Position numbers and translations under genes: made by a program. A stretch of 64,000 nt of DNA from Barnesiella intestinihominis YIT 11860 (GTDB taxonomy: Bacteria > Bacteroidota > Bacteroidia > Bacteroidales > Barnesiellaceae), in assembly GCF_000296465.1 (NCBI RefSeq), contig NZ_JH815203.1, positions 434,001 through 498,000 of the forward strand, given 5' to 3'. The notes under the pieces were generated by a model that saw only the letters and a program-made list of their open reading frames with translations, did no database searches and had not been told where the DNA came from. Shown here in pieces: positions 3,431 through 58,063 of this stretch (position 1 is the first letter of the stretch; each line of letters opens with the position of its first letter).

Positions 3431-6400
3431 TGATTTATACTTTTGCGATCGGCTCTGCTAAATATTAACCAATAGGCTACGGGTAATATCGTTACAGTCA
3501 GTACCATAGAAACAATAGTCCCGAAAAACACCACCGAACCCATAGGGGACCACAGCGGACTACCGCCAAGAATCATAGGAATAACTCCCATCGATGCAGC
3601 AGCAGAAGTAAGAAAAATAGGGCGCATTCTACGCTTCGCTGAGTGCAAAGCGGCTTCCCTAACCGTCAAACCTTCTTTTTCCCTTAGCTCATCGGCATAG
3701 TCGAGCATAATAATGCCGTTACGTACAAGGATACCCATCAAGCTCACAATACCCAATACGGCTGTCACACTCACATCGAGTCCCATTACCCAAATGCCGA
3801 GAGCCGCACCCAATAGGCACAATGAAATGGATCCCAAAACAAGCAACGCCATATTGATTCGGCGGAAATGGAACAGCAAAATAAAGAATATAACAACAAT
3901 AGAAATAAACAGACCGCTCAATATCATATCCAACATCTCATTGTCTGCCTCCTCACTACCACCGACTTCAAAATCAACCCCATCGGGCAAATCGATTTTT
4001 TCAATCGCCTTTACGATCTCCTTAGTCAACGCAGCCGCATTGAACCCCTCCTTTACATCGGATTGTATCGAAATAGACGGTATACCGTTACGATGCGCGA
4101 TTTGGGCATCGTGCCAGTCAGGCTCAATGTCGGCAATCTGCCTTACCGGGACAGAAACCGTACCACCCCATGCCGATACATATTGATTGCCCACATCTTC
4201 ATATGAAGGTTCTATATTGCCACCATCTTTCAGGACCACATCGATAGGATAATCGCCGTCCCATACGGTAGTTACCGGCAACCCATTCCCCAAATGCATG
4301 GACAAACCGGTCGATAACAATGCCTTGTTAATACCCAATCGGCTCATTTCGTCGTCTTTCAATCGCAACGATACTCCGGGAAGTTGCCCTTCCCAATTAT
4401 CATGAACCAGCGAAAGTCCATCAAATTCGGACATTACCGACTTTACCTTATCGGCCGCCAATCGCAAACTATCCCGATTATTCCCTTTCACTCTCATTTC
4501 AATCGGATAGGCTGCTTCGGAATATTCGAGTTGTTTAAACCGGACTCTGACATTCGGGAAGTAATTGAGATATTTGTCCTTGTATTCGGCAATCATCTCT
4601 TCCGTGGCTTTATTACCAATGGTATTGACAATAAACTGGGCATAATTGGAACCCGGCATTTGAGGAGCATAACTGGTATGGAAACGAGGAGAACCGTCAC
4701 CTTTAAATGACGCTACCGAAACGACTCGATTATCTTGCCGAAGTATGGACTCCAAACTATCCGCCACAGCGGCTGTCTGTTCGAGTGCCGTACCAAAAGG
4801 CATATATATTTCCACCGCAAATTGATTACGCTCGGCAAACGGCATTAACTTCATCGGTAATGATAAAAATATAACAACACCAGCGACAATAGAAAGAAGT
4901 CCCACCCCCATTGTCCGAATCGGATGAGCAAAGCACTTAACAATCAATTTGTCGTAAGAAGATTGAAGAATCGTCAAGAACGAACAACGTTGCTTTTTCT
5001 CCTCTTTGGGCTGTTTTCTAAACCCTGTATGAATAAAATGATATTGCATGTAAGGAACTAGCAAAACAGCTACCAGCAAGGATAAAAACAAAATAATAGT
5101 TATCGCCCACGGGAACGATTGTAAAAAATCGTTGATCATTCCCTGCGAGGTTATCAAAAACGGGAAAAACGTGATACTAATCGCCAATGTAGCCGAGAGG
5201 ATCGATTTAAAGAATTCTTTTGCACTTTCTATCGCAGCAGTCCAACGGTCTATTCCGCTATCCAATTTTTCCATATAACAATCGATAATCACTATGGAGT
5301 TATCGACAATCATACCCAATGTAGCAATCAACGCCGCCAAAGTCACCGTATTCAATTCCAATCCACAAGCATAAAATACCAACAGGGACAGAAAAATAGT
5401 AATAGGAATCGTCGATGCAGCTACCGAAGCGACCCTCAAAGGCATTAACAGCATAACTACGATAATAACCGCAATAATAGCGATCAACAACTCTCTGAGG
5501 AAAGTCGTCACTGAATCTCCCACCACCTGTGACTGGTCGGTAATACGAAATATAGAAACATCATCGGGTAATTCCTTCTCATATTCTTCCAATACCTTAT
5601 TGACGTCCTCTCCCATTTGAACGATGTTGTTCCCCTCGCGCATCTCCATAGAGAGGACCAAACATTTCGTTCCGTTGTTCGTAATGTAAGAATCCGGCTC
5701 GGAATATTCCCGCACGACACGCGCCACATCTTTTAGACGTATAGCATGCCCCTGCGGATCGCTAAAAATTATTTGATCAGCCACATCATTCACACAATCA
5801 TATGCCTCGGATATGTGAATGGGAGCCACAAACTTGCTATTATCAACCGCCCCGCTCATCGTCGTAAAACCTTGCGCTAACAACTTTGTCGCCAATGTCG
5901 TGTTACCGATAGCATATCGGGCAAGTTTCGCAGGGTCGAGATAAACGCTTATCTGTTCTTTCTGCACACCGAATGTTCGTAAATTACTTACCGCATCGAT
6001 GTTTCTTAATCGATCTTTAAGTTCGTCGAGATAATTTTCCAGTTCCCGATAGGTCTTATCTTTTGATTCGATCGTTATTAACATGGCTGACGTATCGCCG
6101 AAGTCATCGTTAGTAACCAATGCCAATACCCCGGTCGGCAACTCGGATTTAAAAACCGCAGCCCGATGTTTGAATTTAGCCCAAAATTCATCTTTATCGG
6201 TTATATCGTCGTTCAACTCGACAAAAACGATCGCCATGCCATCTCGACTGAGTGAATGGGTCTTAGACTTTTTTACTTCTTTAAACTCAAAAATAAAATC
6301 TTCAAGCGGTTTAGTCACCTGCTCTTCCACCTCATCGGAAGTGGCTCCCGGATAAACGGCTATCACTACTCCCTGACGCACCGTAAAAACAGGGAATTCC

Positions 6401-8647: not shown

Positions 8648-9373
8648 TTACCTATCGATTTTATAATTTATCCCCGCACGTCGCGCCTGTGAATGCTGGA
8701 ATTCCCGACGAATACGATATACCTTCCCTCCTTTACGCAATCGGGCTCCGGTTTGGTGAAAGCTAAACGGGATATCGGCTGCTATACATTGTCGGCGTAT
8801 ATCCAATACCCAATCATAATCGCAAACCCTCGCATCCATACCCGACTCTCCTCCGACCGATACTTCCTCTATATCGTCATCGAGATAGCCAGACAAATCC
8901 AACGCTCCTAACAAGGGAGCACAAAACAATAGTTTATGCCGTATAGGCAACGAACGAAAAAGAGGTAACCGATAATTCGCCCTGTCTTGATTTTCTACGG
9001 TACAAGCAATAGCGACATGGTCATAACCATCGCCCCAATCACTGGGCAAAGATACTCTGAAACGGTCTATACGTTTCGTCGGAATTAGAAACGATAGATC
9101 ACAGCGTTCCCTAATTATAGCCCATGCTTCGGCTCTCCATTCATCGGCTTCTTCAAGAAAAAAATCGGAAGTAAAACACGTATATACCATTTCACCCGAG
9201 GGTACACGAAAATCACCGTTACGTTTACGACGCAAAGGTAAATCGAAAGCTGCCGTACGTGTCACGACGCTACTATCCTTATCATATCGACTATCTTGCC
9301 TATATACATAACAATGCCTACACCCTTCACTTATTTTATGACAACCATGCCACAAATTCCACGAAACCGACAT
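8648..9373 (-). CDS. DUF5131 (phage Gp37/Gp68-like) protein
   Basis: A 241-residue soluble protein of the DUF5131 family, first named from phage Gp37/Gp68. It has the family N-terminus WNLWHGCHKISEGCRHCYVY, whose C11-x6-C18-x2-C21 cluster suggests metal or Fe-S binding related to radical-SAM folds, and the later motifs FTSDFFLEEAD, IPTKRIDRF, GGESG and FSFHQTG. The start at 9373 is chosen because GGGAG lies 7 bases upstream; a longer reading frame to 9430 has no such site. The biochemical role of the family is not established. The gene is single and lies downstream of a repeat element carrying a consensus promoter pointed at it. Confidence 0.82.
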   Translation of the reverse strand: MSVSWNLWHGCHKISEGCRHCYVYRQDSRYDKDSSVVTRTAAFDLPLRRKRNGDFRVPSGEMVYTCFTSDFFLEEADEWRAEAWAIIRERCDLSFLIPTKRIDRFRVSLPSDWGDGYDHVAIACTVENQDRANYRLPLFRSLPIRHKLLFCAPLLGALDLSGYLDDDIEEVSVGGESGMDARVCDYDWVLDIRRQCIAADIPFSFHQTGARLRKGGKVYRIRREFQHSQARRAGINYKIDR

Positions 9374-9462
9374 ACTCACACTCCCTATTTTTTTTGCAAA
9401 GGCAGTCTCTGTCATACAGAAAATTACCACAAATATACCAAGACACAGCCCTGCATTTTATG

Positions 9463-9557
9463 CAAAGATAGCGAAAGGTGAGCGCAGAGACAAACGGAAT
9501 TCCTGTTTCCAATTCGACCATGCCGAACCACATCCTATTTTCGTAGTTACAAAGACA
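9463..9557 (-). repeat. Copy A of a dispersed 95-bp promoter-bearing repeat
   Basis: The segment aligns without gaps to 57829-57923, about 80 of 95 positions being identical by hand alignment. Its ends are direct repeats of CAAAGATA/CAAAGACA 87 bases apart. Read on the minus strand it carries TTTG (9491-9494), 20 bases, then TATCTTTG (9463-9470), a consensus Bacteroidales promoter firing toward the DUF5131 gene with a leader of about 80 bases. The distal repeat end (9550-9557) has a decayed -7 box. Confidence 0.75.
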
Positions 9558-57213: not shown

Positions 57214-57795
57214 TCAGAGCATTTTCAGAGCCTGCTTAATTACCTCTTCAACTCTCATCGAAGGAGTATCACGCAATAACTTTTGAACTGTTTTTTGCGA
57301 TTGGGGCTGTGAAAATCCAAGCATCACCAACGCAGCCACAGCTTCCTCGTAAATTTCCGAGGCTGCGGGCGTACTTATTACTAACGGATTGTCGGTAGGT
57401 TTTATTTTATCTTTCAAGTCAACAATTACACGCTGTGCAGTTTTAGCGCCTATTCCTTTTACCGACTTCAATAAATTTAGATTCTCCGACACAATCGCCT
57501 GCTCCAACTCAGAAGGATTCAATGAAGACAATATCATGCGGGCTGTATTGGGCCCTACTCCCGAAACAGAAATCAACAATATGAATAGTTCACGTTCGTG
57601 ACGGTCATAAAAGCCATAAAGCTGATAGGCATCTTCCCGAATCGCTTCATAAACATACAGACGTGTAGCTTGCCCTTTCGAAAGGCAAGAATAAGTATTC
57701 AACGAAATATTAAGCAAATAACCTATTCCCATGCACTCCACTACCGCCGTGGCGGGAGTTAAATCGGTAACCTCTCCCGTAATATATTCTATCAT
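57214..57795 (-). CDS. ruvA: Holliday junction branch migration protein RuvA
   Basis: A 193-residue RuvA: OB-fold domain I ([20 protein letters not shown]), domain II with two helix-hairpin-helix motifs ([14 protein letters not shown] and [20 protein letters not shown]), a flexible linker and domain III ([20 protein letters not shown]). It binds four-way DNA junctions and loads the RuvB motor. Length is normal. Its promoter is supplied by the adjoining repeat element (57829-57860). Confidence 0.97.
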
Positions 57796-57828: not shown

Positions 57829-57950
57829 CAAAGATAGCGAAAGGCGAGTGCAGAGACAAACGGAAATCACATTTCCGTTTTGACTATGCCGAGCCGCATC
57901 CTATCTTCGTATTTACAAAGATAGTGAAAGGCGAGCGCAGAGGCAAACGG
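57829..57950 (-). repeat. Copy B of the promoter-bearing repeat, with a second partial unit
   Basis: Two tandem units start at CAAAGATA 57829 and 57916, 87 bases apart; the second is partial. On the minus strand each unit has TTTG, 20 bases, then TATCTTTG: 57857-57860 with 57829-57836, and 57944-57947 with 57916-57923. Both fire toward ruvA. Unit one aligns ungapped with 9463-9557. A palindrome, CGGAAATCACATTTCCG, lies just upstream of the first -33 box. Between this and the plus-strand promoter at 58064 the sequence is A/T-rich and nothing else was seen. Confidence 0.75.
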
Positions 57951-58063
57951 AATTTTCGGCTCGATATAGTTAATATATTATATATATAATTTTTTATCCA
58001 TATTTTTTCCTACTTTTGATTCCTAATAAAATATACGTCTCGACATTAAAACCGAGCAACTTA

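Follow-up and report, generated by a model that had tools for sequence, protein, structure and literature searches.

A dispersed hairpin repeat of Barnesiella intestinihominis that seems to target the -7 box of existing promoters

The genome of Barnesiella intestinihominis carries a short hairpin repeat, dispersed in many copies, that ends in a putative promoter and mostly lies upstream of genes. We put the probability at about 0.7 that this repeat is a non-autonomous mobile element that inserts at the -7 boxes of sigma-ABfr-type promoters and supplies a new putative promoter. A non-coding element of this kind would insert in one orientation at the TATxTTTG sequence of an existing sigma-ABfr-type promoter. 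Its insertion would duplicate the -7 box and push the native -33/-7 promoter to the far side, and the new proximal promoter would combine a -33 TTTG supplied by the element with the second copy of the -7 box. Units would stack head to tail by sharing boxes, and they may be moved by single-strand or site-specific recombination, as suggested by the single orientation, the asymmetric fixed target and the head-to-tail stacking.

The window, that is, the whole 64-kb stretch of DNA analysed, contains two copies. An earlier note had described them as related stretches, and those at 57829 and 9463 do align without gaps over 95 bases, with 80 identities. A pattern search located in both the TTTG-N20 promoter that the note had seen facing ruvA and the DUF5131 gene, the promoter end lying 33 nt and 46 nt from the respective start codons (57795 and 9415). 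The features are as follows.

57829..57915, minus strand: full unit of the hairpin promoter cassette, preceding ruvA
57829-57836, minus strand: near -7 box TATCTTTG of the ruvA unit
57829..57860, minus strand: proximal putative promoter TTTG-N20-TATCTTTG, facing ruvA, with the ATG 33 nt away
57916..57962, minus strand: second, truncated unit (model positions 1-48) at the ruvA locus
57916-57947, minus strand: TTTG-N20-TATCTTTG of the truncated unit
57214..57795, minus strand: ruvA, facing the element (Pfam RuvA_N, HHH_5, RuvA_C)
9463..9549, minus strand: full unit upstream of the DUF5131 gene, the second window copy
9463-9494, minus strand: TTTG-N20-TATCTTTG of the DUF5131 unit
9550-9557, minus strand: far-end box of the 9463 copy, decayed to CAAAGACA
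8648..9415, minus strand: DUF5131 gene (Pfam), facing the second copy

The partial unit reported next to the 57829 copy, with an intact promoter of its own, is real, and its -7 box doubles as the far-end box of the full unit. The proposal that both copies share their unit ends is correct at 57829 and fails at 9463, whose far end reads CAAAGACA and not CAAAGATA. Five matches to TTTG-N19..21-TAnnTTTG occur in the window, three of which are these units (57860, 57947 and 9494, all on the minus strand), and no Rfam family matched within the 64 kb.

Copy number, placement and anatomy of the unit

In a DNA search with a 99-base unit, for which 40 of 78 candidates were scored, the 3.44-Mb genome, in five contigs, yielded at least 55 matches. 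A 27-base IUPAC pattern describing the unit end, with up to three mismatches, occurred at 86 places and its reversed control at none, which shows that the repeat is not due to chance. Using a profile built from 38 full units, we identified at least 98 units (E<1e-3) at no fewer than 66 sites; both counts are lower bounds, since the profile was run on 50 stretches around earlier matches. The repeat is thus dispersed and amplified far beyond the two copies in the window. Two or three units stand head to tail at 26 of the 66 sites, mostly spaced 80-90 bp apart.

Placement follows gene starts and strand, as the note had supposed, so that neither result named in the note as refuting its idea, a mere pair of copies or a placement blind to gene starts and strand, was obtained. 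Among the 50 sites free of overlapping open reading frames (ORFs), the promoter end points toward a gene start in 45 and toward a gene end in 5, and the far end is indifferent (28 starts versus 22 ends). Our ORF caller was simple, taking the longest ORFs and preferring ATG, and a called ORF overlaps 16 of the 66 sites; a rule applied automatically to all 66 gives 55 starts and 11 ends. Six of these 11 were flagged through an overlapping ORF on the opposite strand, the uvrA and ligA sites among them, and the other five have neither a gene start at the promoter end nor an overlapping ORF to explain this. The stretches around the five sites that point toward a gene end contained no tRNA gene, and tRNA genes were dropped as an explanation for them. 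A terminator role was rejected in view of the 45 of 50 sites located at gene starts. The 55 start-facing sites lie a median of 32 nt from the start, 36 of them at 17-50 nt and 40 within 60 nt. Much of this bias is inherited from the target motif, since intergenic TAT[AC]TTTG motifs outside the element show a similar proximity to starts: 41 of 72 have a same-strand start no more than 130 nt downstream, compared with 69 of 123 element-associated ones, far and inner boxes included.

A Pfam scan of 39 of the 56 listed promoter-side proteins identified seven with roles in DNA replication or repair, namely RuvA, LigA, RecR, a MutY-like protein, DnaX, UvrA and SSB. Other genes served include those for ArgS, phosphofructokinase, NAD synthase, DapB, IspD, QueC, Lgt and MTHFR. 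This set may reflect a preference for constitutive promoters, and 7 of 39 is a raw count with no enrichment claimed.

Each unit comprises about 70-80 bp plus an 8-bp box and forms an imperfect hairpin ending in TTTG-N20-TATMTTTG, which matches the sigma-ABfr consensus (TTTG, 19-21 nt, TAnnTTTG). In gene sense, the type of this genome begins with [TATxTTTG] TA(NNTA)CGAAxATAGGATGCGGYTCGGCATAG and, after the hairpin loop, continues with GTTTGYCTCTGC-N-CTCACCTTTCRC [TATxTTTG]. Two unit types occur, CAAAGATA and CAAATATA. In an alignment of 44 full units (46 selected, two containing N dropped), both CAAAxATA boxes and the -33 CAA are nearly invariant; the CAA (TTG) is present in all 44 and CAAA (TTTG) in 33. 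Conservation drops sharply on the near side and more gently on the far side, which often adjoins a further unit. The variable letter is identical in both boxes of 34 of 39 units, these 39 being those of 84 tried that fit a strict pattern. By inspection, no separate terminal inverted repeats lie inside the boxes, and the imperfect hairpin spans the whole unit.

The hairpin is kept by compensatory changes and is conserved across the genus. Its consensus has 18 pairs, eight of which show two-sided changes among 95 of 176 distinct units from this genome and sister species: columns 6-83, for example, are G-C in 55 and U-A in 22, columns 18-71 are U-A in 47 and C-G in 29, and columns 37-50 are A-U in 50 and G-C in 36. 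Paired cells amount to 96.7%, versus 91.9% in shuffles and 30-48% in slid versions, and 96 cells are altered on both sides, versus 36.5 in shuffles and 5-15 in slid versions; none of 500 shuffles reached any of the hairpin measures. As single-stranded DNA, four copies gave fold z-scores of -3.7, +0.6, -3.1 and -4.1, the second being the 9463 window copy, which folds no better than shuffles (z +0.61).

Two further features were observed in this genome (G000). Runs of ten N, either assembly gaps or masked bases, lie inside tandem arrays at G000 C1:852909-853150, C1:975341-975562 and C3:636663-636863. A second repeat family of like design, CTCGAAGATACTTCCGCTCGGC ... hairpin ... GTTTTGCTCTGCTCTCGCTTAT ... 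TATCTTTG, has five copies adjoining or stacked with the first in the stretches examined (L032 C3:479987; L060 C3:394490; L062 C1:679544 and C1:686331; L063 C1:701008).

Filled and empty sites and their junctions

Orthologous loci were compared in close relatives, beginning with ruvA, for which the note had suggested setting loci with and without the unit side by side. Of 281 confirmed ruvA relatives, 80 were retained, led by seven at 90-94% identity (six Barnesiella and one 'Bacteroidales bacterium'). Among the eight close Barnesiella loci, a unit is present in two, our genome and L091. The other six lack it and share a different promoter-like sequence ending in TTAAGTTTG or CTAAGTTTG, and in the remaining 73 of the 80 loci no unit was found at E<0.1. 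This set overlaps with the sister-species set G001-G008, as G002, G003 and G005 are in both. Only one of the eight genomes with the DUF5131 gene, our own, has the unit there; no unit was detected at E<0.1 in the seven sister orthologues, and the gene itself is missing from G008. As a separate observation, the DUF5131 locus is identical at 3657 of 3717 positions between G001 (L302) and G004 (L303), although their uvrA is only 85% identical, so that either a recent transfer or an assembly mix-up may be involved.

Three more loci show mixed occupancy. The uvrA site is filled in four of nine genomes (our own, G002, G003 and G004), and no unit in that orientation occurs in G001, G005, G006, G007 or G008; G001 and G008 have a degenerate copy further up in the opposite orientation. 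At recR, units, some of them partial, occupy six of nine genomes (our own, G001, G003, G004, G005 and G008), with none in G002, G006 and G007. Full units precede ssb in three of nine (our own, G004 and G006), partial ones in G001, G003 and G005, and none in G002, G007 and G008.

The junctions point to the -7 box as the insertion site. Species with an empty uvrA site have a native upstream region such as TATAAAGGATAAA ... GTATCGTTAAAGT ... TATCTTTG. In our genome, G003 and G004, this native DNA, with differences, lies beyond the far end of the element, together with its TATCTTTG. The near end of the element, beside the leader, carries another TATCTTTG; in G003 and G004 this leader resembles the native one. 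G002 has different upstream DNA. At recR in our genome the far flank ends in TATTTCCTATATTTG; at the corresponding place the promoter of G002 and G007 reads TATTTCCTATTTTTG. TATxTTTG is therefore found once at the empty sites and twice at the filled ones, for uvrA in three species and for recR in our own, with the near box intact. Two more genes, filled in G004 and empty in our genome, also have the native flank and box on the far side; here the far box reads TATCTTTG against TATATTTG, one letter off, in our genome, and the near box has decayed (TATATTGT, TATTTTTT). These two were the only genes with a readable junction among the 12 further filled/empty rows listed (11 genes); in the other 10 rows (9 genes) the upstream DNA does not align, the start is uncertain or the element has the other orientation.

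Flanks in our genome and in the other species are consistent with these junctions. Among far-most units complete at that end, a far-end TAnnTTTG is present in 50 of 58 of our genome and in 81 of 118 in all, being less frequent outside our genome (31 of 60), while it occurs in 2.5% of 5000 random 44-base control segments. After 16 of 79 flanks were dropped as unit-like, 63 were kept, some still holding related repeats, and in 19 of these a TTG lies 22 or 23 nt before the far box, versus 6 at 25 nt and between 0 and 3 at every offset of 27-35 nt, indicating that many far boxes belong to a promoter. On the sequences compared, the element appears to insert at the -7 box, duplicating it and giving the gene a new putative promoter. 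The earlier note's mobile or amplified promoter cassette describes this behaviour well, except for the idea that it lands anywhere and rewires expression: at the four genes with readable junctions it sits at the -7 box of an existing promoter, so that insertion preserves a promoter and does not put one down at a random place. The new promoter is probably active.

The direction of these events probably was gain rather than precise deletion at the empty sites. In a tree of uvrA, recR and ssb, the empty G001 and G008 group as sister to G003 (87) and close to G004 and G005 (54, 100), so that uvrA requires either several gains or several exact losses. The hairpin could also promote a deletion from one 8-bp box to the other that would leave exactly the empty sequence, and the polarity of a single site can therefore be read either way. 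Amplification is supported by sequence relationships among units: in a comparison with 133 units from other species, 72 of 78 units of our genome are nearest to another unit elsewhere in it. Of 21 units at loci that species have in common, 20 are closer to an own-genome unit elsewhere than to the same locus in another species, in comparison sets of unequal size (9-77 versus 1-8) and with a few of these units lying away from the gene. Gene conversion within the genome would also yield this pattern.

Alternative explanations and the mobilising enzyme

Conversion is central to an ancestral reading, in which the unit is an ancient regulon promoter or operator at housekeeping and DNA-repair genes, its copies spread mainly by gene conversion and the empty sites are losses. 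The seven replication or repair proteins among the 39 scanned, the genus-wide conservation of the hairpin and the species-typical sequence types, which would also fit concerted evolution, favour it. We nevertheless regard it as quite improbable, because the remaining genes are mixed, occupancy varies among the sister species at all five loci above, and a native flank with a doubled box is the footprint of insertion or deletion, not of conversion.

An ordinary MITE moved by a DDE transposase, with an 8-bp target duplication, would account for the size, the copy number and the direct repeats at the ends, and promoter-bearing MITEs are known. The absence, by inspection, of terminal inverted repeats of its own inside the boxes, together with a target that is fixed, asymmetric and used in one orientation, makes this origin improbable. 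A palindromic, intergenic unit in fixed orientation beside a fixed short sequence also resembles REP/RAYT-type or IS200/IS605-type elements moved by a Y1 (HUH) transposase. The AAxATAG stretch beside the target is complementary to it, like the guide sequences of IS608, and its variable letter follows the far box in 29 of 39 units; such guide pairing is not decisive, given the closer agreement between the boxes themselves (34 of 39). The Y1 transposase (PF01797) had no match in 10 of 11 element-bearing genomes and was present in 24 of 30 element-free ones, and the single Y1 gene of our genome has no unit beside it in its 3.3-kb locus (best E=0.29). A RAYT/IS200 origin would thus require a diverged HUH enzyme invisible to Pfam and is disfavoured as very unlikely.

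A further route is an integron-like cassette handled by a tyrosine recombinase, in which folding of the strand would restore the TATxTTTG core for recombination with promoter boxes. Such a cassette would be a possible mechanism for the insertion described here and does not compete with its anatomy. Head-to-tail arrays with a common core, a conserved asymmetric hairpin with the core at its base and the fixed orientation speak for it. All 27 genomes scanned also have sub-threshold matches to the integron integrase model, but these are presumably ordinary tyrosine recombinases and are equally present in element-free genomes; none of the 27 has an integron integrase above the cut-off, and the units carry no cargo genes. 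We consider this route rather unlikely. Y2 (IS91-like HUH) transposases were found in none of 19 element-bearing genomes and, among eight genomes with 0-1 element matches, in G297 only. Y1 and Y2 transposases and integron integrases therefore do not track the element. In two genomes a tyrosine-recombinase-like gene has element units close before its start (G003:C12:74309-75476 and G008:C34:19147-20237), and these genes are the best matches to the integron integrase model in their genomes, below the cut-off.

Insertion of a mobile element at -7 boxes, our preferred reading, can be carried further, and here we are more tentative: the repeat might represent a new class of mobile element that recognises the core promoter. 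Its folded single strand would carry a -7 box of its own, pair or recombine at -7 boxes and duplicate them, always leaving a working promoter, so that insertion into the promoters of essential genes would be tolerated. This extension is possible, though doubtful.

Distribution and relation to known elements

The element is patchily distributed in the order. With a 20-base promoter-end pattern and up to two mismatches, at least five matches were found in 15 of 295 genomes, from eight families; 43 more genomes have one or two, a number also seen with the reversed control (0-2 per genome). Counts vary even within families (41, 0 and 0 in f69; 35, 31 and 0 in f89; 22, 1 and 28 in f29). A single plasmid match, OY726013.1:16421-16515 at 81% identity on a 46-kb plasmid of Phocaeicola massiliensis, is a possible route between genera. 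The element also matches nine faecal records of 4-23 kb that are labelled 'Bacteriophage sp.' without annotation and are possibly bacterial DNA, and an exact search of viral contigs found no match to an 18-base core; a phage vehicle was set aside on these grounds.

By behaviour, the nearest kind is a promoter-bearing MITE, a likeness that makes no claim of membership in a MITE family. Like a MITE, the element is short and non-coding, with many intergenic copies and a target sequence that is doubled at filled sites. The difference is that here the apparent target is a core promoter box, fixed unlike that of typical MITEs, which is duplicated and used in one orientation. Correia elements duplicate TA on insertion, whereas here the target is the -7 box, the orientation is single and the native promoter is kept on the far side. 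The attC sites of integron cassettes form head-to-tail units with an asymmetric hairpin and a core at its base; the present units are likened to them in these three respects, and they differ in having no cargo and no integron integrase above the cut-off.

Correia elements (CREE) of Neisseria are described as short inverted repeats with outward promoters, mapped upstream of genes (PMC10969869). The BrickBuilt MITE of Porphyromonas gingivalis is an intergenic Bacteroidales element with promoter activity and a 'putative mobile promoter' (PMC4596501). Host order, intergenic position and the promoter idea are common to both, but BrickBuilt is given there IS5-like terminal repeats, an internal 23-nt minisatellite, a variable or absent duplication, distances of 49-591 nt from genes and 19 copies (PMC4596501), all of which differ here. 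REP/REPIN-RAYT systems are dispersed palindromic non-coding repeats that persist as populations (PMC8049555); in our case Y1 is absent from 10 of 11 bearing genomes and placement is tied to promoters. The TTTG / TAnnTTTG consensus of Bacteroides sigma-ABfr promoters, and a near-palindromic motif PM2 with -10/-30 boxes, are reported in PMC7366714; there the consensus is a plain promoter motif, and here it is part of a repeated insertion. The openly accessible literature that we searched, seen in part, held no description of this hairpin element.

Mobile promoters have usually been inferred from elements whose position upstream of a gene may be fortuitous. In the present case the element apparently inserts at the promoter box itself, which would make dispersal and promoter turnover one event. 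The element thus provides a natural experiment in how promoters are replaced at core genes such as uvrA, recR, ssb, ruvA, ligA and dnaX, and its patchy presence among related species makes the search for its mobiliser tractable.
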